Source: Caldicellulosiruptor hydrothermalis 108
GTDB lineage: Bacteria > Bacillota > Thermoanaerobacteria > Caldicellulosiruptorales > Caldicellulosiruptoraceae
Assembly (NCBI RefSeq): GCF_000166355.1
Contig: NC_014652.1
Span: 124,001 to 188,000, forward strand
Direction of reading: 5' to 3'
Length of the DNA: 64,000 nucleotides
Position 1 is the stretch's first letter, and each line of letters begins with the position of its first letter. Positions 40,553-56,743 of this stretch are shown here, piece by piece. The translations under genes and the position numbers were made by a program. The notes under the pieces were generated by a model. That model was given only the letters and a program-made list of their open reading frames with translations, was not told the origin of the DNA and searched no databases.

Positions 40553-40575
40553 CGAACACAGTATTAAAAAGTAGG

Positions 40576-40599
40576 AAGCGGGCAGATGCCTGCTTTTTT
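40576..40599 (+). terminator. Rho-independent terminator
   Basis: AGCGGGC (40577-40583) and GCCTGCT (40588-40594) pair with one wobble across a 4-nt loop, then TTTTTATTTT. It ends the methylesterase transcript. Confidence 0.85.
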
Positions 40600-40654: not shown

Positions 40655-40683
40655 TTGCAATTCCTCAAAAAATTGAGTAGAAT
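40655..40683 (+). promoter_or_regulatory. Promoter of the DeoR operon
   Basis: TTGCAA (40655-40660), a 17-nt spacer and TAGAAT (40678-40683), about 50 nt before the DeoR start codon. Confidence 0.6.
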
Positions 40684-40735: not shown

Positions 40736-41497
40736 ATGCTTTCGGCAACGCGCAGGCAAAAAATTAAAGAGATATTGATGGAGAAAAAGAGTGTGACTGT
40801 CACAGAGCTTTGCAACATTTTCAACGTATCTGACGAGACAATAAGAAGAGATTTGAAAAAACTTGAGCAGGAAGGGATAATCGAAAAAAATTATGGTGGA
40901 GCTATTTTAAAAGAAGGGGTATCAATAGTTCCACCTATTTCCCAGCGCTCAAAAGAGTTTATCCAAGAAAAAGAAAGGATTGCGCTTGAGGCAATAAATA
41001 GAATAAAAGAGGGCATGGTTGTAATTCTGGATACAGGAACAACCACACAGCAGATAGCAAGAAAGCTCAAAAGCTTTCAGCACATAACTGTGATAACCAA
41101 TGGCATAAATATAGTTAATGAGCTCATAACAAATAACAGTATCAATTTATTTTTAGTTGGAGGCAAGGTGAAAAATTCTAACTTTTCGACAGTTGGACCA
41201 GAAGCCCAGAAAGCATTTTTGCAGTTTAGTGCTGATATAGCTTTTATAGGAACAAGTGGCATTTCTCTTGAAAAAGGTCTTACAACCTCTGATGTTTTTG
41301 AAGCAGAGGTAAAAAGGGCTATGATAGATAGCAGCAAAGAGGTCATAGTTGTTGCAGACAGCAGCAAGTTCAAGAAAAATGCCATGGTTTCGTTTGCAAC
41401 CCTCAGCAAAGTGTCTGAAATTATCACAGCAGGCGAAATAAGTAGTGAGCTTGTGGAAAATTTCAGACAAAAGGGTGTGAAAATAACTGTAGTATAA
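40736..41497 (+). CDS. DeoR-family sugar-phosphate-responsive regulator
   Basis: 253 residues. The N-terminal winged helix has the DeoR signature (RRQKIKEILMEKKSVTVTEL; FNVSDETIRRDLKKLEQEG). The C-terminal isomerase-like sensor domain has ILDTGTTT, ITNGINIVNEL, VGGKV, GTSGISLEKG and ADSSKF, which bind a phosphorylated sugar intermediate. It is first in an operon with an FGGY kinase and an aldolase, so the inducer is probably the product of that kinase. Confidence 0.9.
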   Translation: MLSATRRQKIKEILMEKKSVTVTELCNIFNVSDETIRRDLKKLEQEGIIEKNYGGAILKEGVSIVPPISQRSKEFIQEKERIALEAINRIKEGMVVILDTGTTTQQIARKLKSFQHITVITNGINIVNELITNNSINLFLVGGKVKNSNFSTVGPEAQKAFLQFSADIAFIGTSGISLEKGLTTSDVFEAEVKRAMIDSSKEVIVVADSSKFKKNAMVSFATLSKVSEIITAGEISSELVENFRQKGVKITVV

Positions 41498-41551
41498 CCT
41501 TCTCAAAAAAAGCAAAGAGGAGATTTTTATGTTGAAAGGGGCAAACCTTAA

Positions 41552-43045
41552 ATGGAAAAGATTCTTACCATAGACATTGGAACAACTGCCTGCAAGGTAA
41601 TAGTGTTTGACCTGCAGGGGAACATCTTGGCAAAAGCAAACAGGGAGTATCCCACATATACACCTCAGATTGAGTGGGCAGAACAAGACCCTCTTGACTG
41701 GTGGAATGAAGTAGTAGAAGGTATCAAGGAAGTAGCACAGGCAGCAGGGGCAGATGGTATTGTAGCAATTGGACTTTCATCTCAAAGAGAGACAGTTGTT
41801 CCAATTGACAAGGAAGGAAATGTTCTATCAAGAGCTATTTCGTGGATGGACAGGCGTTCACGGCTTGAAGCCGAAGAAATTTCACATCAGTTTGGGAAAG
41901 ATACGATACATAAAATCACAGGTTTGATTCCAGACTCTACATTTACTGCAACAAAGCTTTTGTGGCTAAAAAAACATCAGCCAGAGATTTTGCAAAAAGC
42001 TTATATTTTTCTGCAGCCCAAAGAGTTTATTGGGTACATGCTCACAGGCGAGGCTGCAACAGACCATTCATTGGCAAGCAGAACAATGATGTTTGACGTA
42101 AACAAAAGACAGTGGTGGGAAGATATATTTGAGTTTGTGGGGGTCAAAACCTCTCAGTTTCCAAGACTTTGTTATGCAGATGAAGTCATAGGGTATTTGA
42201 AAGAAGATGTTGCAAAAATTCTGGGTCTTAAAAGCGGAATACCAGTTGTAAGCGGTGGTGGAGACAGGCCTTTGGAGGCATTAGGAGCGGGGATTGTAGG
42301 AAGCCGTGTTATGGAGTCAACAGGGACTGCCACAAATGTTTCGATGTCATCTAATAAAGTGCCAGAAAGTCTTGACCCGAGAGTTGTGTGTTCCTGCCAT
42401 GTGATAAGAGACCACTACTTGATTGAGCAGGGGATAAACACAAGCGGTACAATTTTAAGATGGATAAGAGACAACTTTTACAGGGGCGAGAAGGAAAAAG
42501 GCGAGAACGTTTATGAGCTGATTGATAGTGAAGCTGAAAGTTCAAGCCCTGGTGCAAATGGTGTTGTGCTTTTACCGTTTTTCATGGGCAGCCGAGCGAC
42601 AAGATGGAACCCTGATGCAAAAGGAGTTCTGTTTGGGCTGACGCTGACACATTCAAGAGCTGACATTGCAAGAGCTGTGCTTGAAGGAATTTCGTATGAA
42701 ATAAGAGCGTGCATTGAGATTTTAGAGTCTATGGGGCTTAAAGCTGAGAGTATAGTTTCTATGGGGGGTGGCGCAAAGAGCAGAGTATGGAGCAAAATTA
42801 AAGCTGATATTTTGGGGAAGAATGTTGTTGTTGAAAAGGTACAGGAGGCGGCATCAAAAGGAGCAATGCTTCTTGCTTCATACGCAATTGGTGCAAGGGA
42901 AAGCTTAATTGAGGAAAAAAGAGAAGTGCTTTTTGAGTACCAGCCAGACAGCAAAAACCATGAGATTTACAACAGAGTGTATGAAATATACAACCAGCTT
43001 TACAACTCAGTTTCTCCCCTTTATCCAAAGCTTTCTCAATATTGA
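41552..43045 (+). CDS. FGGY-family carbohydrate kinase
   Basis: 497 residues with two actin-like domains. The N-terminal phosphate loop is in DIGTTACKVIVFD, the substrate-side motif in SSQRETVVPID, the Asp base region in VVSGGGDRPLEALGAG, and the adenosine motif in SMGGGAKSRVWSKIKADIL. It resembles gluconate, xylulose or other sugar-acid kinases of the family, and the exact substrate cannot be told. It sits between the DeoR regulator and a class II aldolase, and likely phosphorylates the ketose or keto-acid that the aldolase splits. Confidence 0.87.
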   Translation: MEKILTIDIGTTACKVIVFDLQGNILAKANREYPTYTPQIEWAEQDPLDWWNEVVEGIKEVAQAAGADGIVAIGLSSQRETVVPIDKEGNVLSRAISWMDRRSRLEAEEISHQFGKDTIHKITGLIPDSTFTATKLLWLKKHQPEILQKAYIFLQPKEFIGYMLTGEAATDHSLASRTMMFDVNKRQWWEDIFEFVGVKTSQFPRLCYADEVIGYLKEDVAKILGLKSGIPVVSGGGDRPLEALGAGIVGSRVMESTGTATNVSMSSNKVPESLDPRVVCSCHVIRDHYLIEQGINTSGTILRWIRDNFYRGEKEKGENVYELIDSEAESSSPGANGVVLLPFFMGSRATRWNPDAKGVLFGLTLTHSRADIARAVLEGISYEIRACIEILESMGLKAESIVSMGGGAKSRVWSKIKADILGKNVVVEKVQEAASKGAMLLASYAIGARESLIEEKREVLFEYQPDSKNHEIYNRVYEIYNQLYNSVSPLYPKLSQY

Positions 43046-43064
43046 TGGTTAGGAGGTCTTTATT

Positions 43065-43901
43065 TTGCTTGTAAATTTGAATGAGGTATTAAGCTATACA
43101 AAAGTAAAAAAGTTTGGTGTGGGGATGTTCAACGGGCTTTCTGCCGACTTTTATGAGGGACTGATTGATGCTGCAGAGCAGCTCAGATGCCCAATTATCA
43201 TCGGTGTTGCTGACAGGTTTGTTGACAGGCTTGATTTTGAGATGATTGCAGAGGTCATGATTTTCCTTGCGAAAAGGGCATCTGTTCCAGTGTGTGTTCA
43301 TCTTGACCATGCAAAGAGTCTGAAAAATATCATGAGAGCAATAAAGGCTGGGTTTACATCTGTCATGTTCGATGGGTCAAGCTTGCCATTTGAAGAGAAT
43401 ATAAAGAGAACCAAGGAAATTGTTGAGATAGCGCATTCTGTTGGTGTGAGCGTTGAAGGTGAGCTTGGAGTTGTGGGAAGAGGAGATTTTGACTTTAAAA
43501 ATCCAGAATTTTATACAAAGCCTGATGAAGCTGAGGAATTTGCACAAAAGACACAGGTTGATGCTTTAGCTGTTTCGATCGGTACAGTTCATGGTGTTTA
43601 CAAAGGCGAACCAAAACTTGATTTTGAAAGGCTTTCTGAAATCAGAAAAAGGGTTGATTGTTATTTAGTTTTGCATGGTGGGTCTGGTCTTTCTGATGAG
43701 GATTTTAAAAAGTGTATAGAATATGGCATAAACAAGGTAAACATATTTACAGACCTGACACTTGCTATAAATGCTCAGCTTCCAGAGTTTATAAAGCAAA
43801 CAGAAGATTTGACCCCAGCAATATTTGAAAAAATAAGAGAGATTGTAAAACAAGAGGCTATAAAAAAGCTTAAAATCTTTGGCAGTTACAACATTATATA
43901 G
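43065..43901 (+). CDS. Class II (zinc) aldolase, FbaA/GatY family
   Basis: 278 residues. The TIM barrel has the class II motifs: Asp and His ligands in HLDHAKS, EGELGVVG, the zinc His in SIGTVHGVYKG, the third His in LHGGSGLS and the phosphate-binding NIFTDLT. The start is TTG 43065, with AGGAGG 9 nt upstream. In a sugar-catabolic operon it is more likely a tagatose-bisphosphate or ketose-1-phosphate type aldolase than the glycolytic enzyme. It lies 19 nt behind the kinase. Confidence 0.87.
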   Translation: MLVNLNEVLSYTKVKKFGVGMFNGLSADFYEGLIDAAEQLRCPIIIGVADRFVDRLDFEMIAEVMIFLAKRASVPVCVHLDHAKSLKNIMRAIKAGFTSVMFDGSSLPFEENIKRTKEIVEIAHSVGVSVEGELGVVGRGDFDFKNPEFYTKPDEAEEFAQKTQVDALAVSIGTVHGVYKGEPKLDFERLSEIRKRVDCYLVLHGGSGLSDEDFKKCIEYGINKVNIFTDLTLAINAQLPEFIKQTEDLTPAIFEKIREIVKQEAIKKLKIFGSYNII

Positions 43902-43927
43902 ATAAAAATTTTTGGAGGTGTGAAAAA

Positions 43928-44839
43928 ATGAACGAGCCAATTAAAAAATATTTTAAGATAGGAACAATTCATTTCATGTCATTTCCAGAGGTAATTGGCG
44001 GCGAAGGTCCAATTGAAGAAACCTTAAAAATAATCTTGGAAGACGACTACTTTGATGCAGTAGAAATTACATGGGTAAAAGATCCAGAGGTAAGAAAAAG
44101 AGTAGCAAAGATGTTAAAGGATGCACATATAGCGGTTGCGTATGGTGCACAGCCAACTCTTCTTAGAACAGGGCAGAACCCCAACGATTTGGACCCAGAG
44201 AAAAGGAAACAGGTTATAAACTTTTTAAAAGAGAGGATTGACGAGGCGATTGAGCTTGGTGCCCAGGGGCTTGGATTTTTGTCAAGGCAATATGATGAAG
44301 CAAAGAAAGAAGAAGCATTTGAAGCTTTGGTTGATACAACTTTGCAGCTTTGCGACTATGCAAAGTCAAAAGGCAATTTCATGATTGAACTTGAGGTGTT
44401 TGACTTTGACATAGACAAAAAGAGCTTGATTGGACCTGCAGAGCTTGCGGCAAAATTTGCAGAGAGAATCAAAAAAGAATATGATAATTTTGGTTTGATT
44501 GTTGACCTTAGCCATCTGCCACTTACAAGAGAAACAGCAGAGCAAGCGCTCCTGCCAGTAAAAGATTATCTTACACATGTTCATATTGGGAATGCGGTTG
44601 TGAAAGACCCAAGCCACCCTGCATATGGTGACAAGCATCCGATGTTTGGAATAGAAGGCGGCGAAAATGACGTTGAAGAGGTTATTGAGTTTTTGAGAGT
44701 ATTAAAAGAAATAGGATTTATGGACCCGGTAAAAAGACCAATTTTGAGTTTTGAAGTAACACCTATGGCAGGGCAAGACCCAAAGATTGTTCTTGCAAGC
44801 TCAAAGCGAGTATTAAATGAGGCATGGGCAAGATTATAA
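43928..44839 (+). CDS. Sugar phosphate isomerase/epimerase-like TIM barrel protein
   Basis: 303 residues of the xylose-isomerase-like barrel family. Metal-ligand candidates are Glu in IELEVFD, Asp in LIVDLSHLP, His in HVHIGN and Glu in LSFEVTPM. Members isomerise or epimerise free or phosphorylated sugars and sugar acids. GGAGGTG precedes ATG 43928. It lies 26 nt after the aldolase. The reaction is unknown; an epimerase or isomerase step ahead of the kinase would fit the operon. Confidence 0.83.
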   Translation: MNEPIKKYFKIGTIHFMSFPEVIGGEGPIEETLKIILEDDYFDAVEITWVKDPEVRKRVAKMLKDAHIAVAYGAQPTLLRTGQNPNDLDPEKRKQVINFLKERIDEAIELGAQGLGFLSRQYDEAKKEEAFEALVDTTLQLCDYAKSKGNFMIELEVFDFDIDKKSLIGPAELAAKFAERIKKEYDNFGLIVDLSHLPLTRETAEQALLPVKDYLTHVHIGNAVVKDPSHPAYGDKHPMFGIEGGENDVEEVIEFLRVLKEIGFMDPVKRPILSFEVTPMAGQDPKIVLASSKRVLNEAWARL

Positions 44840-44898
44840 TTATCTTGTTTATGAGTTCTATAACATAAACTTTATCACTTTTGGGAGGGAATTTTGGA

Positions 44899-45870
44899 AT
44901 GAAGATACTTGTGACAAGAAGAATAATGGAGCCTGCGATTGAGCTTTTGAAAAAGTACGGTGAGGTTGAAGTAAATCCACACGACAGACCAATGACAAGA
45001 GAAGAGCTTTTAAAAGCAATAGCTGACAAGGATGCAGTTTTAACCCAGCTTGTTGATAAAGTGGACAGTGAGTTTTTTGATCATGCACCAAATGTCAAGA
45101 TTGTTGCAAACTATGCAGTGGGTTACGATAACATAGATATTGAAGAGGCAACAAGAAGAGGTGTTTATGTAACAAACACGCCAGACGTTTTGACAAACGC
45201 AACAGCTGAGCTTGCATGGGCGCTTTTGTTTGCTGCGGCAAGAAGAATAGTTGAAGCTGATAAGTTCATGAGAGGCGGACATTACAAAGGCTGGGGTCCG
45301 ATGCTCTTTTTAGGCAAAGGCGTGACAGGCAAGACACTTGGTGTAATTGGTGCAGGTAGGATTGGTCAGGCTTTTGCAAGAATGTCAAAAGGATTTAACA
45401 TGAAGATTTTGTACTATGACTTTGAAAGAAAAGAAAACTTTGAAAAAGAGCTTGGTGCACAGTATGTAACGCTTGATGAGCTTTTAAAAGAAGCAGACTT
45501 TATTTCAATCCATGTGCCGCTCACACCACAGACAAGGCATTTAATTGGCGAAAGAGAATTTTCTCTCATGAAACCATCGGCAATTTTAATTAACACAGCA
45601 CGCGGACCAATTGTAGATGAAAAGGCGCTTGTAAAGGCACTGAAAGAAAAGAAGATTTATGCTGCAGGGCTTGACGTGTATGAGAGAGAACCCGAGTTTG
45701 AGCCTGAGCTTGCTGAGCTTGACAATGTTGTAATGCTTCCTCATATTGGTTCTGCAACAGAAGAGTCAAGGCTTGACATGGCAATGCTTGCAGCAAACAA
45801 TATAGTAGATTTCATTGAAGGAAGAGTTCCAAGAACACTTGTCAATAAAGAGGTTTTAAACAAGAAGTAA
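44899..45870 (+). CDS. D-isomer-specific 2-hydroxyacid dehydrogenase (glyoxylate/2-ketoaldonate reductase type)
   Basis: 323 residues. The Rossmann domain carries VIGAGRIGQAFARMSKGF, and the catalytic set comprises Arg in NTARGPIVDEKAL, Glu in YEREPEFEPELAELDNV and His in LPHIGSAT. NPDVLTNATAELAWALL-type sequence (here TPDVLTNATAELAW) is typical of the glyoxylate/hydroxypyruvate/2-ketogluconate reductase group. ATG 44899 has GGGAGGG 9 nt upstream. Last gene of the operon before a strong hairpin, suggesting that a 2-keto acid is reduced, or the reverse, in this pathway. Confidence 0.88.
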   Translation: MKILVTRRIMEPAIELLKKYGEVEVNPHDRPMTREELLKAIADKDAVLTQLVDKVDSEFFDHAPNVKIVANYAVGYDNIDIEEATRRGVYVTNTPDVLTNATAELAWALLFAAARRIVEADKFMRGGHYKGWGPMLFLGKGVTGKTLGVIGAGRIGQAFARMSKGFNMKILYYDFERKENFEKELGAQYVTLDELLKEADFISIHVPLTPQTRHLIGEREFSLMKPSAILINTARGPIVDEKALVKALKEKKIYAAGLDVYEREPEFEPELAELDNVVMLPHIGSATEESRLDMAMLAANNIVDFIEGRVPRTLVNKEVLNKK

Positions 45871-45896: not shown

Positions 45897-45927
45897 TCCC
45901 TGCGGGAAAAGACTTGTCCCGCAGGGA
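45897..45927 (+). terminator. Terminator after the DeoR operon
   Basis: TCCCTGCGGGA (45897-45907) pairs perfectly with TCCCGCAGGGA (45917-45927), followed by GCATTTAAATT. The stem is strong and the T-tract poor. Confidence 0.7.
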
Positions 45928-45972: not shown

Positions 45973-46023
45973 TGTTATAATATTTTTGTGAATAATACGC
46001 AACACCGTTTCACAATACGAAAC
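45973..46023 (+). promoter_or_regulatory. Extended -10 promoter and IclR-type operator
   Basis: TGTTATAAT (45973-45981) is an extended -10 element. Downstream, GTTTC (46007-46011), 7 nt and GAAAC (46019-46023) form an inverted repeat directly before the ribosome-binding site of the IclR gene. A repressor bound there would block the start of transcription or early elongation. GTTTC/GAAAC half-sites resemble those of KdgR-like IclR proteins (inference). Confidence 0.55.
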
Positions 46024-46036
46024 AGGAGAGTATAAG

Positions 46037-46810
46037 ATGGCGCAAAACAGTGTACAGTCTATTGAAAGAGCATTTGAGATAATCGAGGCATTGGCTGTTG
46101 AGCCAAGGGGACTTACTGTAAGTGAGCTTTCCGAAAAGCTTTCACTTCACAAGACGACAGTCCACAGGATACTGCAGACACTTCTTCAAAGAGGGTATGT
46201 ACAAAAAGACAGGCATACTCTAAGATACAAGCTTGGCGTGAAGTTTGTTGAAATATCAAGCATGTATCTTAACAACATCGAGCTTAAGACAGAAGCACAT
46301 CCGTATTTAAGAGAACTTGTAAAGATGTTCAATGTAACTGTTCATCTTGCCATACTTGATGAGTTCGATGTTGTGTATATCGACAAAGTAGAGCAGGTAA
46401 ACTCAATAAGGCTTTATTCTTCGATTGGTAAAAGAGTCCCCGCATATTGTACAGCTCTTGGGAAGGTTTTGCTCAGCAAGTATCAGGACCATGAAATCAA
46501 AAAGATACTAAAATCAATTGAACTCAAGCCTTATACACAAAACACTATAACCGATCCAGAGATTCTTTTAAATGAGATAATACTTGCAAGACAACGTGGC
46601 TGGGCAGTTGATAATCAAGAGCTGCAACCTTCAATCAGATGCATTGCTGCGCCTGTATATGACTACAGAAATGAAATCATTGCTGCCATAAGCATTTCTG
46701 CCCCTGTGAACATTTTGCCGCCTGAAATGGATGAAGAAAATGCAAAAAAGGTTGTAGACACAGCAATGGCAATCTCAAGTAGACTTGGGTATGTAAAAGA
46801 CAGGTTCTAA
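46037..46810 (+). CDS. IclR-family regulator, KdgR-like
   Basis: 257 residues. The N-terminal winged helix is SVQSIERAFEIIEAL ... LSLHKTTVHRILQTLLQRGY. The C-terminal effector domain (VYIDKVEQVNSIRLYSSIGK; YCTALGKVLLS; RGWAVDNQELQPSIRCIAAP) is typical of IclR. It is first in an operon with KDPG aldolase, KDG kinase, KduI and KduD, so the effector is probably 2-keto-3-deoxygluconate or a relative, as for KdgR of enterobacteria. Confidence 0.9.
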   Translation: MAQNSVQSIERAFEIIEALAVEPRGLTVSELSEKLSLHKTTVHRILQTLLQRGYVQKDRHTLRYKLGVKFVEISSMYLNNIELKTEAHPYLRELVKMFNVTVHLAILDEFDVVYIDKVEQVNSIRLYSSIGKRVPAYCTALGKVLLSKYQDHEIKKILKSIELKPYTQNTITDPEILLNEIILARQRGWAVDNQELQPSIRCIAAPVYDYRNEIIAAISISAPVNILPPEMDEENAKKVVDTAMAISSRLGYVKDRF

Positions 46811-46851
46811 GAATACTATAAAAAGTTAAATGAAAGGGGTTTAGCTCTTCG

Positions 46852-47499
46852 ATGGAAAAAGAACAGGTGCTTGAAAGAATTCACGAAAATGGGCTTGTGG
46901 TTGTTGTAAGGGCTGAGTCAAAAGAAAAAGCTCTAAAGATAACCGAGGCTTGTATAAGAGGCGGAGCGAGCGCAATTGAGATCACCTTTACAGTTCCAGG
47001 TGCGGATGAAATAATCAGACATCTTACAAAAACATACAGTGAGGACAAGATAATAATCGGTGCAGGGACAGTCCTTGACAGTGAGACAGCACGAATTGCA
47101 ATCTTGGCGGGTGCAAAGTTTGTTGTGAGCCCATACCTCAATCCTGAAATGGTAAAACTTTGTAACAGGTACAGGATAGCTTCGATGCCCGGTGCTATGA
47201 CAATAAAAGAGGTGGTAGAAGCCCTTGAGTGCGGTGCAGATGTTATAAAGATTTTCCCTGGAGAGCTTTTTGGACCAAAGATTATAAAAGCATACAAAGG
47301 ACCAATCCCACAGGCAAGACTTATGCCAACAGGCGGCGTTGACCTTGACAACGTTGATGAATGGATAAAAGCGGGTGCTTTTGCTGTAGGTGTTGGCGGA
47401 AATATAACAAAATATGCAAATGACGAAGATTTTAGCAAAGTGGAAGAGGTGTGCAGACAGTTTGTTGAAAAGATAAAGATAGCAAAGGGGAAGGTATAG
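46852..47499 (+). CDS. kdgA: 2-keto-3-deoxy-6-phosphogluconate (KDPG) aldolase
   Basis: Splits KDPG into pyruvate and glyceraldehyde-3-phosphate. At 215 residues it has the usual length. The class I aldolase motifs are VVVRAESKEKAL, IEITFTVPGA with the proton-shuttle Glu, GAGTVLD, FVVSPYLNPEM, the Schiff-base Lys in DVIKIFPGELFGP and MPTGGVDLDNVDEWI. It lies directly behind the IclR gene and 5 nt ahead of KDG kinase. Confidence 0.94.
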   Translation: MEKEQVLERIHENGLVVVVRAESKEKALKITEACIRGGASAIEITFTVPGADEIIRHLTKTYSEDKIIIGAGTVLDSETARIAILAGAKFVVSPYLNPEMVKLCNRYRIASMPGAMTIKEVVEALECGADVIKIFPGELFGPKIIKAYKGPIPQARLMPTGGVDLDNVDEWIKAGAFAVGVGGNITKYANDEDFSKVEEVCRQFVEKIKIAKGKV

Positions 47500-47504
47500 G
47501 TAAG

Positions 47505-48533
47505 ATGTTTGAGGTGACAAGCTTTGGAGAGATAATGCTAAGACTCTCACCGCCTGGGTATCAGAGGATTGTGCAGGCGACAAGTTTTGACATCAATTTT
47601 GGCGGTGCTGAAGCAAATGTTGTTGTTGCTCTGTCAAACATCGGGGTGAAGACAAGCTATGTAACACTTCTTCCGCAAAATCCTCTTGGAGATGCTACTA
47701 TAAACTTTCTGAGAAGATATGGGGTTGACACAAGCTATATAAAAAGAAAAGGCAGAAGGCTTGGAATTTATTTTCTTGAAAAGGGTGTTGGTCAGAGAGC
47801 ATCTTCTGTTGTGTACGACAGAGCAGACTCTGCCATAAATGAGATACAGCCTGGGGATATCGACTGGGAGGACATTTTGAGAAAGACCAGGATATTTTTT
47901 TCAACAGGAATCACTGCAGCTTTATCACAAAATGTGCTAAATGAGCTAAAAATGGCTTTTAAGACAGCAAAAAATGCAGGTGCAAAGGTGGCGTTTGACA
48001 TCAATTATAGGTCAAAACTGTGGAGCTATGACAGGGCAAACGAGGTAATCTCAGAGCTTATGCCGTATGTGGACATTTTAATTACAAACGAAGAGCATGT
48101 AAGAAGAGTTTTAAAGATTGATATGGAAGACAAATATTCTGAAGGCATTGACCTTACTCCAGATGGTCAAAAGGTTTTGTTTGAAAGGTTGCAAACAAAG
48201 TACCAAAACTTGGAGAGAATAGTTCTTGCCGCAAGAAGAAGTCTTTCTGCTTCTAAAAACATATTTTTTGCATATACAAGTGATGAAAATGGCAACATTG
48301 TGTTTTCAAAAAAGCGCGAAATAGAAGTTATTGACAGGGTGGGGGCAGGTGACGCTTTTACTGCAGGTGCACTATATAGCATTTTAAGAGGGCTTGAAAG
48401 CACTCAGATGCTTGAGGTTGCAACATACATGTGCGCTCTAAAACATACAGTTGAAGGTGATAGTTTGATTGTGACTGAGGATGAAATAAAACAGGCGCTT
48501 TTACAAGACAGCTCAGGTATGATGAAAAGATAA
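47505..48533 (+). CDS. kdgK: 2-keto-3-deoxygluconate kinase (PfkB family)
   Basis: 342 residues. PfkB kinase with the N-terminal glycine motif INFGGAEANVVVALSNIGV and the C-terminal anion hole and base in DRVGAGDAFTAGALY. It converts KDG to KDPG, the substrate of the aldolase encoded just upstream. An insert around ILITNEEHVRRVLKIDMEDKYSEG, cited here as ILITNEEHVRRVLKID, is typical of bacterial KdgK. Start ATG 47505, GGTAAG upstream. Confidence 0.92.
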   Translation: MFEVTSFGEIMLRLSPPGYQRIVQATSFDINFGGAEANVVVALSNIGVKTSYVTLLPQNPLGDATINFLRRYGVDTSYIKRKGRRLGIYFLEKGVGQRASSVVYDRADSAINEIQPGDIDWEDILRKTRIFFSTGITAALSQNVLNELKMAFKTAKNAGAKVAFDINYRSKLWSYDRANEVISELMPYVDILITNEEHVRRVLKIDMEDKYSEGIDLTPDGQKVLFERLQTKYQNLERIVLAARRSLSASKNIFFAYTSDENGNIVFSKKREIEVIDRVGAGDAFTAGALYSILRGLESTQMLEVATYMCALKHTVEGDSLIVTEDEIKQALLQDSSGMMKR

Positions 48534-48555
48534 AACAAGGGAGGGTTATTTGAAA

Positions 48556-49386
48556 ATGGAAGTTCGGTTTGCAATGCATCCAAGCCAGTTTAAAACTCTT
48601 ACCACAGAACAGATAAGAAAAGAGTTTTTGATTGAAACCTTATTTGAATACGGGAAAATCAACATGGTCTACACTCATGTTGACAGGGTGATTGTCGGTG
48701 GTGCTGTGCCAACAGTGGAAGCTTTGGTCTTGGAAGATGGAAAAGAGATTGGTGCTCAATATTTTCTTGAAAGAAGAGAGATAGGGATAATCAACATAGG
48801 CAGCAAAGGTTATGTTGTGGCAGATGGACAAAAGTTCGAACTTGACAAGAAAGATGGGCTTTATGTTGGAATGTCGACCAAAAAGCTTGAATTTGGGAGC
48901 GATGACCCTTCAAATCCTGCCAAGTTCTACTTTGTTTCAACACCCGCTCATAAACAGTATCCAACAGAAAAGATTGATATCAAGCAAACTGAGGCAACTC
49001 ATCTTGGTTCGCTTTCTGAGTCAAATGAAAGGACAATCTACAAATACATCCATCCAGACGGGGTTAAAAGCTGCCAGCTTGTAATGGGAATGACAATTTT
49101 AGAGCCGAACAATGTATGGAACACCATGCCCTGCCATTTGCATGACAGGAGGATGGAAGTTTACTTCTATTTTGACATGCCAGAAGATGCGTTTGTTTTG
49201 CACCTGATGGGAGAGCCGCAGGAGACAAGACATATTATTGTGAGAAATGAACAGGCGGTAATCAGCCCAAGCTGGTCGATACACTCTGGTGTTGGAACTA
49301 AAAATTATACTTTCATCTGGGCAATGGCAGGCGAAAATCAATCATATTCTGATGTTAATCCTGTGCCTATGAAAGATTTAAAATAA
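48556..49386 (+). CDS. kduI: 5-keto-4-deoxyuronate isomerase
   Basis: 276 residues, collinear with E. coli KduI from MEVRFAMHPSQFKTLT. Zinc cupin with the metal-binding region NTMPCHLHDRRMEVYFYFDM, and later HIIVRNEQAVISPSWSIHSG and YTFIWAMAGEN. It converts 5-keto-4-deoxyuronate, the product of unsaturated-uronate release, to 2,5-diketo-3-deoxygluconate. ATG 48556 has GGGAGGG 10 nt upstream; the TTG two codons earlier is too close to it. Confidence 0.95.
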   Translation: MEVRFAMHPSQFKTLTTEQIRKEFLIETLFEYGKINMVYTHVDRVIVGGAVPTVEALVLEDGKEIGAQYFLERREIGIINIGSKGYVVADGQKFELDKKDGLYVGMSTKKLEFGSDDPSNPAKFYFVSTPAHKQYPTEKIDIKQTEATHLGSLSESNERTIYKYIHPDGVKSCQLVMGMTILEPNNVWNTMPCHLHDRRMEVYFYFDMPEDAFVLHLMGEPQETRHIIVRNEQAVISPSWSIHSGVGTKNYTFIWAMAGENQSYSDVNPVPMKDLK

Positions 49387-49412
49387 GGGGCGATTTTGGA
49401 GGTGACATTGAA

Positions 49413-50174
49413 ATGATATTGGATAAATTCAAACTGGATGGTAAGGTTGCAATTGTGACAGGAGCATCAAAAGGTCTTGGGCAGGGTATGGCAATTGCTT
49501 TGGCTGAAGCTGGTGCAGACATAGTTGGGGTAGCATCTGGGCCTTGTACAGAAACAAAACAGAAGATAGAAGCTCTTGGCAGAAGATTTTTAGAAATCCA
49601 AGCAGACTTGAGGACCATTGAGCCCATAAACTCTATCATTGAAAAGACTGTCCAAGAGTTTGGAAAACTTGATATTCTTGTAAATAATGCAGGAATTATA
49701 AGGAGATGTGATGCGATAGATTTTACAGAAAAGGACTGGGATGATGTCTTGAATCTCAATTTAAAGACAGTATTTTTCTTCTGCCAGGCAGCAGCAAGAC
49801 AGTTCATAAAACAAGGAACAGGCGGCAAAATAATAAACATCGCATCCATGCTTTCTTTCCAAGGTGGAATAAGAGTTCCATCATACACGGCAAGCAAGAG
49901 TGGAGTTGCAGGAATTACAAAAGCACTTGCAAATGAGTGGGCAAAGTACAATATCAATGTCAATGCAATAGCGCCAGGTTATATGGCAACAGATAATACA
50001 AAGCCACTTCGCGAAGACCCTGTCAGAAGTGCGGAGATTCTTTCCAGAATTCCAGCAGGCAGATGGGGTACCCCAGAAGATTTGCAAGGTGCTGTTGTGT
50101 TCTTGGCATCATCAGCTTCTGACTATGTAAATGGCTGTATCTTGAACGTTGATGGCGGCTGGCTTGCAAGATAA
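49413..50174 (+). CDS. kduD: 2-deoxy-D-gluconate 3-dehydrogenase (2,5-diketo-3-deoxygluconate reductase)
   Basis: Classical short-chain dehydrogenase of 253 residues. The cofactor motif is TGASKGLGQGMA, NNAG follows in DILVNNAGIIRR, and the catalytic Ser/Tyr/Lys are in IASMLSFQGG and YTASKSGV. RIPAGRWGTPEDLQGAVVFL is typical of KduD. It reduces 2,5-diketo-3-deoxygluconate to KDG and so closes the gap between KduI and KdgK. It lies 26 nt after kduI. Confidence 0.94.
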   Translation: MILDKFKLDGKVAIVTGASKGLGQGMAIALAEAGADIVGVASGPCTETKQKIEALGRRFLEIQADLRTIEPINSIIEKTVQEFGKLDILVNNAGIIRRCDAIDFTEKDWDDVLNLNLKTVFFFCQAAARQFIKQGTGGKIINIASMLSFQGGIRVPSYTASKSGVAGITKALANEWAKYNINVNAIAPGYMATDNTKPLREDPVRSAEILSRIPAGRWGTPEDLQGAVVFLASSASDYVNGCILNVDGGWLAR

Positions 50175-55312: not shown

Positions 55313-56743
55313 TTAAGCGATAAGTTTTTTGAGCTTGTTAAGTTTTTTGATAGTCAATTTAGAGCAATAGAGTTTGATATTGTGAGCGAGAATAAACAAG
55401 AGCGAGAAAGTAATGGCAGATAGCAAGAAATCAGAGAAAATAGAAATATGGTCATAAGTAGAGATAGTATCAGAGCCCATGTAGGATTTCAGGTGGTAAA
55501 TAGTCTGCTCTACAGCGACACGTTTTTTGTAGAGGTCAAAAAACTCTTGTGAATTTCTGTTGATACCTGGGAAAGAGCGAAAGTTATCTGGGTATGTATA
55601 GAACATTCTACCCGATTTAGAGGTAGTACAAGGCTGAGGGCAAGAGCAGATGCGTTTGCCATCTTTGTATTGTGACATAGGGCAAGTCCATTTAAGGCGC
55701 AAAGAGCGATTTTTACCCTGACATTTGCCTTCGGGTTTAAAAGGTTTGTTGAACTTTTTGCAGATAGGGATACCATCTTCAGAAATAACGATATTGGGGT
55801 CTGATGTAGGTGTAGTATTTTTAGAAGCTCTTGTATTTAGTGGAATAACGATTTTGGAGAAGTTAAAGGTATTTTTTAAAGTGGAGTATATGTTGTGGGA
55901 ATCCAAAGCACTGTCGGCGATGAAAGTGGAGAAATTTTTGGGGATATAAGAGAATAAAGTTTCGAGCGAAGGAATTAAACCTTTAGAGTCGGAGATAGCT
56001 TTTGCTTCTTGTGGGTCAGAGGAAGGGGAATCATAGTTAAACAGAGGTACTAAAGCTAAAGGGATACCGAGAGCGTTGGTAATGACTGCAAATTTTAAAG
56101 CCCAGCAGAAATGGCCATTTACAAACATAAGACGGATGTTAGAATTAGCGTTAGCAGTTTTAGGCAAAGAAGAATAAACGAGAGAGTAGACTTTTTCAGA
56201 GGGAAGTTCAGGGTTAGCTTTTGAGGTATTTTTCAGCAGTAGATGAATGAATTTAGGATTGTTTTCACGAACCTTTGGGACAATACCTGTTGTGTCGAAG
56301 ATTAAGATTGAAGAATCTTGAGGGCATTGTTGGATGGAAATATTATGTGCATGGATAGAGATATTTTGAAAAAGTTTATGGATTTCACTTGCAAATATTT
56401 TTCTAAAGCGAGAGAGAGTAGAGATAGAAGGGACATTGCCATGAAGATTACAAAATGAGCGAAGTTCGAATGAGTTGAGTAAGACAGCACGAAGCTGAGT
56501 TAAAGTATTGAGTTTGAGCAATTTTTGGACGAGGAAGCAACAAAGCATAGATTCTAAAGAGAAGTATCTATGCTTACCGAAATATTTGTAGTAGGCATTG
56601 TAGAAAGAAGAAGGTATATAATGTGACAAGTCAATGAATTTATTGAACAAGCCCAAGAGGCTTTCAGGCTTGTAGAGAGCCGAAGCCTTTAGGTGGGAGA
56701 ATAGGTCTATGAAAGAAAGTTGTTTAGGTTTGGTGTTGAACAT
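55313..56743 (-). CDS. DDE transposase, IS4-type
   Basis: 476 residues. The Tnp_1 DDE fold has a first Asp in ILIFDTTG and a second in FIADSALDSHN. The exact YREK signature Y-x2-R-x3-E-x6-K of IS4-type enzymes occurs as Tyr405, Arg408, Glu412 and Lys419. A cysteine-containing insert (CSCPQPC) lies before the last catalytic residue. The reading frame is intact, so it may be active. GAGGAGGG is spaced 7 nt from the ATG but lies in a potential hairpin with an upstream complementary copy. The subgroup (for instance IS1182-like) is not certain. Confidence 0.88.
   Translation of the reverse strand: MFNTKPKQLSFIDLFSHLKASALYKPESLLGLFNKFIDLSHYIPSSFYNAYYKYFGKHRYFSLESMLCCFLVQKLLKLNTLTQLRAVLLNSFELRSFCNLHGNVPSISTLSRFRKIFASEIHKLFQNISIHAHNISIQQCPQDSSILIFDTTGIVPKVRENNPKFIHLLLKNTSKANPELPSEKVYSLVYSSLPKTANANSNIRLMFVNGHFCWALKFAVITNALGIPLALVPLFNYDSPSSDPQEAKAISDSKGLIPSLETLFSYIPKNFSTFIADSALDSHNIYSTLKNTFNFSKIVIPLNTRASKNTTPTSDPNIVISEDGIPICKKFNKPFKPEGKCQGKNRSLRLKWTCPMSQYKDGKRICSCPQPCTTSKSGRMFYTYPDNFRSFPGINRNSQEFFDLYKKRVAVEQTIYHLKSYMGSDTISTYDHISIFSDFLLSAITFSLLFILAHNIKLYCSKLTIKKLNKLKKLIA

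Follow-up and report, generated by a model that had tools for sequence, protein, structure and literature searches.

A five-gene operon beside the pectin genes

The stretch of Caldicellulosiruptor hydrothermalis 108 DNA that was analyzed (the window; 64,000 nucleotides) carries five adjacent genes between a pectinesterase gene and a pectin operon. An ORF check of the window confirmed all five open reading frames on the forward strand at their predicted coordinates, and domain matches bear out the families to which they had been assigned by the original prediction (DeoR, FGGY, class II aldolase, TIM barrel, and 2-hydroxyacid dehydrogenase). The locus contains the following features.

40573..40598, + strand: left border, an intrinsic terminator that belongs to the pectinesterase gene upstream (stem of 11 pairs, T-run, -17.1 kcal/mol)
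40655..40683, + strand: predicted promoter (TTGCAA, 17 nt, TAGAAT)
40664-40677, + strand: palindrome CTCAA-N4-TTGAG between the two promoter hexamers, putative DeoR operator
40736..41497, + strand: DeoR-family repressor (PF08220, PF00455), with an orthologue in 12 of 12 species
41552..43045, + strand: FGGY kinase (PF00370, PF02782; FGGY_N/FGGY_C), proposed D-tagaturonate 1-kinase
43065..43901, + strand: class II FBA-family aldolase (PF01116, F_bP_aldolase), proposed tagaturonate 1-phosphate aldolase
43928..44839, + strand: xylose-isomerase-like TIM barrel (PF01261, AP_endonuc_2), proposed hydroxypyruvate isomerase outside the Hyi family
44899..45870, + strand: D-2-hydroxyacid dehydrogenase (2-Hacid_dh; matches a glyoxylate reductase model), proposed hydroxypyruvate reductase
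45898..45926, + strand: right border, hairpin CCCTGCGGGA/TCCCGCAGGG with a 10-bp perfect stem
46007..46023, + strand: GTTTCACAATACGAAAC, putative operator for KdgR (IclR family), whose gene heads the next operon
46037..50174, + strand: neighboring pectin operon, for context only (kdgR 46037, eda 46852, kdgK 47505, kduI 48550)
49413-50174, + strand: SDR dehydrogenase read as kduD, the last gene of the pectin operon

The five genes share one strand and are spaced by 20 to 60 bp. The dehydrogenase open reading frame as called spans 44881-45870, and the ATG at 44899, which is preceded by a GGGAGGG ribosome site, is the more likely start. Because gene order and the encoded proteins (84-99% identity) are conserved in 10 of 12 congeneric genomes, the operon is not due to chance, and its compactness as first described is borne out by coordinates, strand, and conservation. 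The hairpins that were said to bound it are both present, but the upstream one belongs to the pectinesterase gene as its terminator, and the downstream one lacks a T-run. The latter is kept in all 10 operon-bearing species (-25 to -39 kcal/mol), and a generic terminator count in the region gave no excess over shuffled sequences (5 vs 5.7).

The link to pectin that had been suspected from the neighborhood holds more widely, as, in each of the 10 Caldicellulosiruptor species, among 12, that carry the operon, it is immediately followed by the KdgR pectin operon. This kdgR-eda-kdgK-kduI-kduD operon is the route for unsaturated uronates, and GAAAC repeats similar to those of the putative KdgR operator precede kdgR in 10 of 10 operon-bearing species, where they presumably have the same function. 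In the other two species (G007 and G008), the four operon enzymes, kdgR, kduI, and kduD are all absent from the locus. A remnant of the kinase 5′ end is joined there to the 3′ end of kdgR, with junctions that differ between the two, and the DeoR gene now runs straight into eda-kdgK. Deletion removed the four enzymes and kdgR jointly from both species, and this loss is read directly from the sequences, as are the gene families, their conservation, and the presence or absence of other enzymes.

An aldolase-based wide survey at E 1e-75 matched only 11 of the 37 members of the class and 9 of the 398 of the phylum, nearly all within the genus, and the full operon could not be traced beyond it. The aldolases of two further genomes (G013 and G068) are located in unrelated clusters. 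A kinase survey in plasmids gave mostly annotated xylulokinases and unrelated contexts. One genome (G002) has a second set of FBA, FGGY, and dehydrogenase genes, accompanied by a permease of the gluconate type, which counts in favor of the reading proposed below.

The promoter and palindrome hardly vary across the 12 species, even in the two without the enzymes, and a pattern search found the exact palindrome in a single copy genome-wide. The candidate DeoR-binding sequence ahead of the operon is CTCAAAAAATTGAG, and the DeoR protein would repress the operon via the palindrome in its own promoter. A DeoR-family regulator called UxaR has been predicted over two uncharacterized clusters of “putative tagaturonate utilization enzymes” (Rodionov et al. 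2021, PMC8579813), and the Caldicellulosiruptor ‘uxa’/‘hem’ clusters were placed under it in silico. That report made the tagaturonate assignment because the usual enzymes are missing, and it states the same pathway gap that we describe below. The five-gene operon is very probably one of these UxaR clusters, and its DeoR protein is probably UxaR. The operon had originally been called unassigned. This description is only partly right, as the cluster was probably already flagged in PMC8579813. We found no published text that sets out the order of reactions.

UxaR is given two target clusters in that report, and one convincing operator was found in this genome, a discrepancy that counts against the reading proposed below. 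Two candidates for a second site were rejected, namely, a 2-mismatch match within a solute-binding-protein gene, at its 3′ end, and a 3-mismatch match within a coding gene, as the number of matches was close to that of the reversed control (2 hits). The remaining DeoR loci were also rejected as a second tagaturonate cluster, as they resemble fructose, rhamnose, monosaccharide-transport, and similar clusters; no other DeoR gene found in this genome heads an uncharacterized sugar cluster of the UxaR type.

The galacturonate gap and a proposed route

The uronate isomerase UxaC is encoded in all 12 genomes of the genus (positive control included), as is glycerate kinase (PF02595), whereas profile searches with a positive control detected altronate dehydratase (PF04295) and the tagaturonate epimerase UxaE (PF16257) in none of them. 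Thus, neither altronate dehydratase nor UxaE with UxuAB follows UxaC in these 12 genomes, and tagaturonate must have another exit. Because UxaC is present and both of these enzymes are absent, the gap sits in main-chain galacturonate, and not with the pectin side-chain sugar or aldonate that had been suggested as the substrate. Counting against a role in galacturonate catabolism, uxaC lies ~1.2 Mb from the operon, behind eno, without a copy of the operator, and G007 retains three intact uxaC copies though the operon is absent (uxaC also serves glucuronate). Counting in favor, the uxaC gene of G008, the other species without the operon, carries an in-frame stop.

The reading we favor, with a probability only slightly better than even (about 0.52), is that the operon is a repressor-controlled galacturonate catabolic module that enters glycolysis via DHAP and D-glycerate and not via KDPG. 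We infer its substrate, step order, regulation, and all catalytic activities. UxaC, encoded elsewhere, would convert D-galacturonate to D-tagaturonate, and the FGGY kinase would phosphorylate the CH2OH beside the keto group to give D-tagaturonate 1-phosphate (the 6-phosphate when numbered from the carboxyl). The FBA-type aldolase would then cut between C3 and C4, as a tagatose-bisphosphate aldolase does, to yield DHAP and tartronate semialdehyde (2-hydroxy-3-oxopropanoate). Conversion of tartronate semialdehyde to hydroxypyruvate would fall to the TIM barrel, reduction of hydroxypyruvate to D-glycerate to the D-2-hydroxyacid dehydrogenase, and formation of phosphoglycerate to a glycerate kinase encoded elsewhere. 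That all parts hold together as a complete pathway not described before is a more tentative proposal, to which we give somewhat less than an even chance. In it, tagaturonate would be phosphorylated at C1, aldol cleavage would release DHAP and tartronate semialdehyde, and the semialdehyde would be salvaged as glycerate by an isomerase of a new hydroxypyruvate isomerase family followed by a reductase of the GyaR type.

Galacturonate is one of the most abundant plant sugar acids, and the published anaerobic bacterial routes for it that we found run via altronate or mannonate and KDG, or phosphates thereof. If true, the DHAP/glycerate route would replace the Ashwell pathway in a genus of pectin-degrading thermophiles and close the galacturonate gap stated for Caldicellulosiruptor, an industrial biomass genus. 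The annotations “xylulokinase” and “fructose-bisphosphate aldolase” would be corrected, and a widespread, unnamed TIM-barrel family, which allantoin degraders would share, would gain a function.

Another pectin-derived ketose or sugar acid, for example an apiose-like branched side-chain sugar, could instead be the substrate. The TIM barrel would then act first, as an aldose isomerase, followed by the kinase and then the aldolase, and the dehydrogenase would reduce a short oxo acid from the second fragment. Indeed, minor ketoses are usually handled by a set of kinase, aldolase, and isomerase (rhaBAD, fucIKA), an FBA-FGGY pair stands beside an isomerase-like gene at locus L122, and a putative sugar isomerase from Pectobacterium (PDB 3ktc) is among the best structural matches to the TIM barrel (Z 27.4). 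We consider this unlikely, however, as the operon includes no dedicated side-chain glycosidase or transporter, galacturonate would be left without a known route in a pectin-gene-rich genus, and a homologue of the TIM barrel is found in an allantoin cluster. A search of the open literature for an apiose route found no text with the term “apulose”.

Enzymes of the proposed route

The metal tetrad of the TIM barrel (E156, D193, H219, E276) is invariant in 19 homologues. Its predicted model (pLDDT 92) has the xylose-isomerase-like/D-tagatose 3-epimerase fold (Z up to 28.2), in which the structure search does not separate epimerases from isomerases. No Hyi model was among its NCBIfam matches at E 0.001, and it is 14% identical to E. 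coli Hyi. The nearest named family is IolO, a 5-keto-L-gluconate/tagaturonate epimerase, whose cutoff is not reached (41.7 vs 300 bits, NF041099); this kinship would suit a step before the kinase and counts against the isomerase reading. In that case galacturonate and tagaturonate would still be the substrates, but the TIM barrel would be a tagaturonate epimerase with a product such as fructuronate or 5-keto-L-gluconate. This epimer would be the substrate of the kinase and aldolase, and the dehydrogenase alone would handle the three-carbon acid. Consistent with this, the predicted fold is nearest to D-tagatose 3-epimerase-like structures (Z 27-28) with the same kind of metal tetrad, and LguG, a homologue of IolO, converts 5-keto-L-gluconate and tagaturonate into each other (PMC12632266). 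However, fold and metal site are common to the whole superfamily, with xylose isomerases within 2 Z units, and an epimerase of six-carbon sugar acids would not explain the four other lineages in which the TIM barrel is paired with a 2-hydroxyacid dehydrogenase and with neither kinase nor aldolase. GyaR-type enzymes are expected to reduce 2-oxo acids and not tartronate semialdehyde, which likewise speaks against a pre-kinase epimerase, and we regard this arrangement as quite unlikely.

The genomic partners of TIM homologues point to hydroxypyruvate isomerase. The allantoin cluster of Enterococcus gilvus runs from allB to a Gcl-like enzyme, a TIM barrel (49% identity), a 2-hydroxyacid dehydrogenase, and glycerate kinase, and its E. 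coli counterpart has the order gcl-hyi-glxR ... glxK. By this analogy, we propose that the E. gilvus TIM barrel occupies the position expected for hydroxypyruvate isomerase. The product of the Enterococcus TPP enzyme is uncertain because it scores below the Gcl cutoff (636 vs 791) and carries HEE at the position where E. coli Gcl presumably has HVE. In three further lineages (L005, L008, and L009), a 2-hydroxyacid dehydrogenase likewise comes directly after the TIM barrel, with neither kinase nor aldolase, and the L008 dehydrogenase is 62% identical to that of the operon. The majority of other TIM homologues have no adjoining dehydrogenase, which counts against this assignment.

The dehydrogenase itself marginally passes the cutoff for glyoxylate reductase (GyaR; 455.5 vs 455 bits, NF009714), and its best PDB match is a glyoxylate reductase (E 9e-118). 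It contains R241, E270, and H288 (TTG-start numbering), which we take to be the catalytic R, E, and H of the family. Because it is of the glyoxylate/hydroxypyruvate reductase type, the enzyme more likely reduces a product than oxidizes the substrate.

Comparison of the kinase active site with those of FGGY members revealed SQRET (77-81) where xylulokinase has GQMHG, a difference shared by 10 of 10 orthologues; both E. coli XylB and the separate XylB of this genome have GQMHG. The kinase residue D238 aligns with D233 of E. coli XylB and is followed in all 10 orthologues by R239, which replaces the N/Q of XylB/GlpK.

The aldolase is of the FBA kind of class II, not the AraD/FucA kind, and retains the metal and catalytic motifs (HLDH 79-82, H176, H204). 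Its metal-ligand and DHAP-site motifs HLDH, VHGVY, HGGSG, and NIFTD align with KbaY, GatY, and YdjI. The C terminus, GSYNII as opposed to GSANR / GCEGR, lacks the R/K of these three enzymes, a basic residue that presumably binds phosphate in KbaY/GatY. Its score of 217.9 bits does not reach the KbaY/GatY cutoff (TIGR01858, 443.55). YdjI, annotated in E. coli (NC_000913.3) as cleaving an acidic ketose 1-phosphate, is the closest E. coli relative among those tested (40% identity vs 34% for KbaY).

Although the aldolase belongs to the tagatose-bisphosphate aldolase superfamily, the kinase and aldolase are not clearly orthologous to enzymes of tagatose or fuculose catabolism, in keeping with the original view that no standard pathway fits. 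Ordinary xylulose or fructose/tagatose metabolism, with an extra xylulokinase and a broad-specificity ketose-bisphosphate aldolase, is very improbable: the kinase does pass the XylB equivalog cutoff (TIGR01312, 402.2 vs 380.25 bits) and the aldolase that of the cbbA subfamily, but the genome encodes a separate FBA besides its GQMHG-bearing XylB, and the aldolase falls under every curated tagatose-/fructose-bisphosphate equivalog cutoff.

Comparison with known systems

The Ashwell (isomerase) pathway for galacturonate consists of UxaC-UxaB-UxaA-KdgK-Eda. The proposed route would share its start from UxaC-made tagaturonate and, on paper, its yield per galacturonate, which is 1 ATP without net NADH. 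It would differ by phosphorylating before cleavage and by ending in DHAP and glycerate, whereas the Ashwell pathway ends in GAP and pyruvate.

The E. coli ydj cluster is, as annotated, alike in C1 phosphorylation and FBA-family cleavage of an acidic ketose (YdjH kinase, YdjI aldolase) and has an adjoining DeoR-type regulator. It differs in its eight-carbon substrate, in the modest 40% aldolase identity, and in having zinc dehydrogenases and an aldo-keto reductase where the operon has the TIM barrel and hydroxyacid dehydrogenase. YdjH, moreover, is presumably a PfkB-type and not an FGGY kinase. The tagatose-bisphosphate aldolases KbaY and GatY share superfamily and catalytic motifs with the operon aldolase, and the C3-C4 configuration of tagaturonate is that of tagatose. 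They differ in identity (33-34%), in the C-terminal basic residue, and in the distal site, which is DGSS in the operon enzyme and DGSH/DASH in KbaY/GatY.

The uxa/hem clusters of Rodionov et al. (2021) are alike in that a DeoR-family regulator leads an uncharacterized sugar cluster; the main text of that report gives them no reactions, whereas an order of kinase, aldolase, hydroxypyruvate isomerase, and reductase is proposed here. Finally, the glyoxylate-to-glycerate pathway (E. coli gcl-hyi-glxR-glxK and the E. gilvus cluster) would share the sequence from tartronate semialdehyde through hydroxypyruvate and D-glycerate to phosphoglycerate and, in E. gilvus, the same TIM family. It differs in deriving tartronate semialdehyde from glyoxylate and, in E. 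coli, in using the distant Hyi at this step.

A five-gene operon next to pectin genes

As the original prediction stated, five genes of the families it named form a compact operon, identified by open reading frame and domain searches of the window. All are on the forward strand with spacing of 20 to 60 bp, and stems border the operon on both sides.

Features of the operon (window coordinates)
40573-40598, upstream (5′) hairpin, terminator-like
40736-41497, + strand, DeoR regulator
41552-43045, + strand, FGGY kinase
43065-43901, + strand, F_bP_aldolase-type class II aldolase
43928-44839, + strand, AP_endonuc_2 TIM barrel (TIM)
44899-45870, + strand, D-2-hydroxyacid dehydrogenase (the ATG at 44899 is very likely its start)
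45898-45926, downstream (3′) perfect 10-bp stem, kept in all 10 operon-bearing species

The palindrome CTCAA-N4-TTGAG is located between the -35 and -10 hexamers of the operon promoter, and the promoter block that includes it is almost invariant across 12 species. The following operon, kdgR-eda-kdgK-kduI-SDR, carries its own putative KdgR-like operator. The same gene order is present in 10 of the 12 genus genomes, and the predicted position beside pectin genes holds in every one of them, wherein the kdgR operon is always the neighbor. In one relative (G001), an IS-like ORF of 476 aa on the opposite strand separates the aldolase and TIM genes (L051:5881-7311) and may break the operon at that point. 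This ORF recurs in several genomes at ~91% identity, including a window copy at 55313-56743 (- strand), and has a weak plasmid relative annotated as a transposase.

The remaining two genomes (G007 and G008) retain the regulator and its promoter block and have lost the enzymes. The 5′ part of the kinase gene (roughly 30-55 codons) is fused to the 3′ end of kdgR, with junctions that differ between the two genomes. Because the deletion removes the remainder of the kinase gene along with the aldolase, TIM, dehydrogenase, and kduI-kduD genes, the enzymes were lost jointly with pectin-specific genes at this locus. Both genomes retain eda-kdgK, which is required for glucuronate as well. A separate gene for a LUD-domain (PF02589) protein lies between kduD and a GH88 gene in several relatives (L052:4211-4867; L055:13923-14561; L056:14355-15011; and others) and is absent from the window's genome.

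A gap in galacturonate use

UxaC is present in all 12 genus genomes, and neither altronate dehydratase nor UxaE was found in any of the 12; the searches for all three were positive in control genomes. PMC8579813 reports this gap as well and places two uncharacterized clusters for tagaturonate use under the predicted control of UxaR, a regulator of the DeoR family. Among the DeoR genes found in the genome, only that of the operon heads an uncharacterized sugar operon beside pectin genes, and thus the operon is likely one of the clusters outlined there. A tagaturonate kinase or tagaturonate phosphates were not found in open-access text, and the reactions may already stand in Fig. 1 of PMC8579813.

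The uxaC gene is remote from the operon and has no copy of the operator; that of G008 contains one in-frame stop. G007 lacks the operon yet carries a repeated eno-uxaC segment, with three uxaC copies (C1:1187760, 1237928, and 1266653; L064, L065, and L066) each directly behind an enolase gene. The persistence of three intact copies despite operon loss is explained by glucuronate use.

Active sites of the kinase and aldolase

The kinase scores above the XylB model cut-off (402 versus 380 bits), and therefore automatic annotation will label it a xylulokinase. Active-site comparison with characterized FGGY members reveals SQRET, resembling the NQRET of glycerol kinases, at the position of the xylulokinase GQMHG; another FGGY kinase of this branch encoded in the genome keeps GQMHG. 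In addition, an arginine directly follows D238 (aligned with E. coli XylB D233) in 10 of 10 orthologues. A pair of substrate-site arginines would be in keeping with an acidic substrate.

Alignment of the aldolase indicates intact catalytic motifs and 40% identity to YdjI, whose RefSeq record names an aldolase for acidic octulose 1-phosphate. The aldolase is less similar to the other FBA encoded in the genome (37%) and to KbaY and GatY (33-34%). Like YdjI, it has no histidine following D-[GA]-S; unlike YdjI, the other FBA, KbaY, and GatY, it lacks a basic C-terminal residue, which fits a predicted substrate without a distal phosphate.

The TIM-dehydrogenase pair and the proposed route

The TIM model is a confidently predicted barrel (pLDDT 92) with the fold of xylose isomerase and tagatose epimerase by structure search, and its E-D-H-E metal site is invariant among aligned homologues. 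Membership in the E. coli hydroxypyruvate isomerase (Hyi) family is ruled out by 14% identity and the lack of a Hyi model match. The family is spread over scattered phyla, and gene context is the strongest clue to its function. A 49% identical TIM in an Enterococcus gilvus allantoin cluster is flanked on one side by a TPP enzyme and on the other by genes for a 2-hydroxyacid dehydrogenase and glycerate kinase, an order that parallels gcl-hyi-glxR ... glxK of E. coli. Strong as it is, this clue falls short of proof because the TPP enzyme, although best matched by the glyoxylate carboligase (Gcl) model, scores under its cut-off, and one characteristic position is not the same as in E. coli Gcl. 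In three further lineages, a 2-hydroxyacid dehydrogenase directly follows TIM with no kinase or aldolase nearby, so the pair is a separable module. In one of these lineages (L008), the dehydrogenase is 62% identical to that of the operon, and at L017 TIM is close to a glycerate kinase and a dehydrogenase. The pair is best read as converting tartronate semialdehyde via hydroxypyruvate to D-glycerate; glycerate kinase is present in all 12 genus genomes. Given its fold, TIM may instead be an epimerase, and the operon may instead act on another substrate.

Other TIM homologues have different neighbors. In other phyla, some lie near four-carbon acid-sugar kinases and PdxA-like dehydrogenases and near split transketolase genes (the latter at L002, L005, and L017), which hints at further roles of the family in short sugar acids. 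In Acidobacteria-related genomes, several are in yet another setting, 5′ of genes for the ATPase of a sugar ABC transporter and a ROK kinase (L006, L007, L010, L011, L013, and L018).

TIM neighborhoods in other phyla with four-carbon acid-sugar kinases, PdxA-like dehydrogenases, or split transketolases
L003:474-2809
L005:8922-9926
L005:14392-17875

G002 has a second set at L108:6907-13064 (C1 about 2,102,900-2,109,060) encoding an RpiR regulator, a 2-hydroxyacid dehydrogenase, an FBA aldolase (46% identical to that of the window), a GntP gluconate-type permease, and an FGGY kinase (35%). This set resembles a related pathway directed at a different sugar acid, suggesting that such chemistry also serves further sugar acids.

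The operon is best explained by galacturonate use through tagaturonate. C1 phosphorylation of ketoses by FGGY kinases (FucK, RhaB) is established, and the kinase would form tagaturonate 1-phosphate. Since D-tagaturonate is D-tagatose oxidized at C6, cleavage by the aldolase in the manner of tagatose-bisphosphate aldolases would give DHAP and tartronate semialdehyde, which TIM would isomerize to hydroxypyruvate for reduction to D-glycerate by the dehydrogenase. In this proposed chain of kinase, aldolase, isomerase, and reductase, every enzyme class would be used once and each product would be the next substrate, with a yield on paper equal to that of the Ashwell route, the textbook isomerase pathway: 1 ATP and no net NADH.
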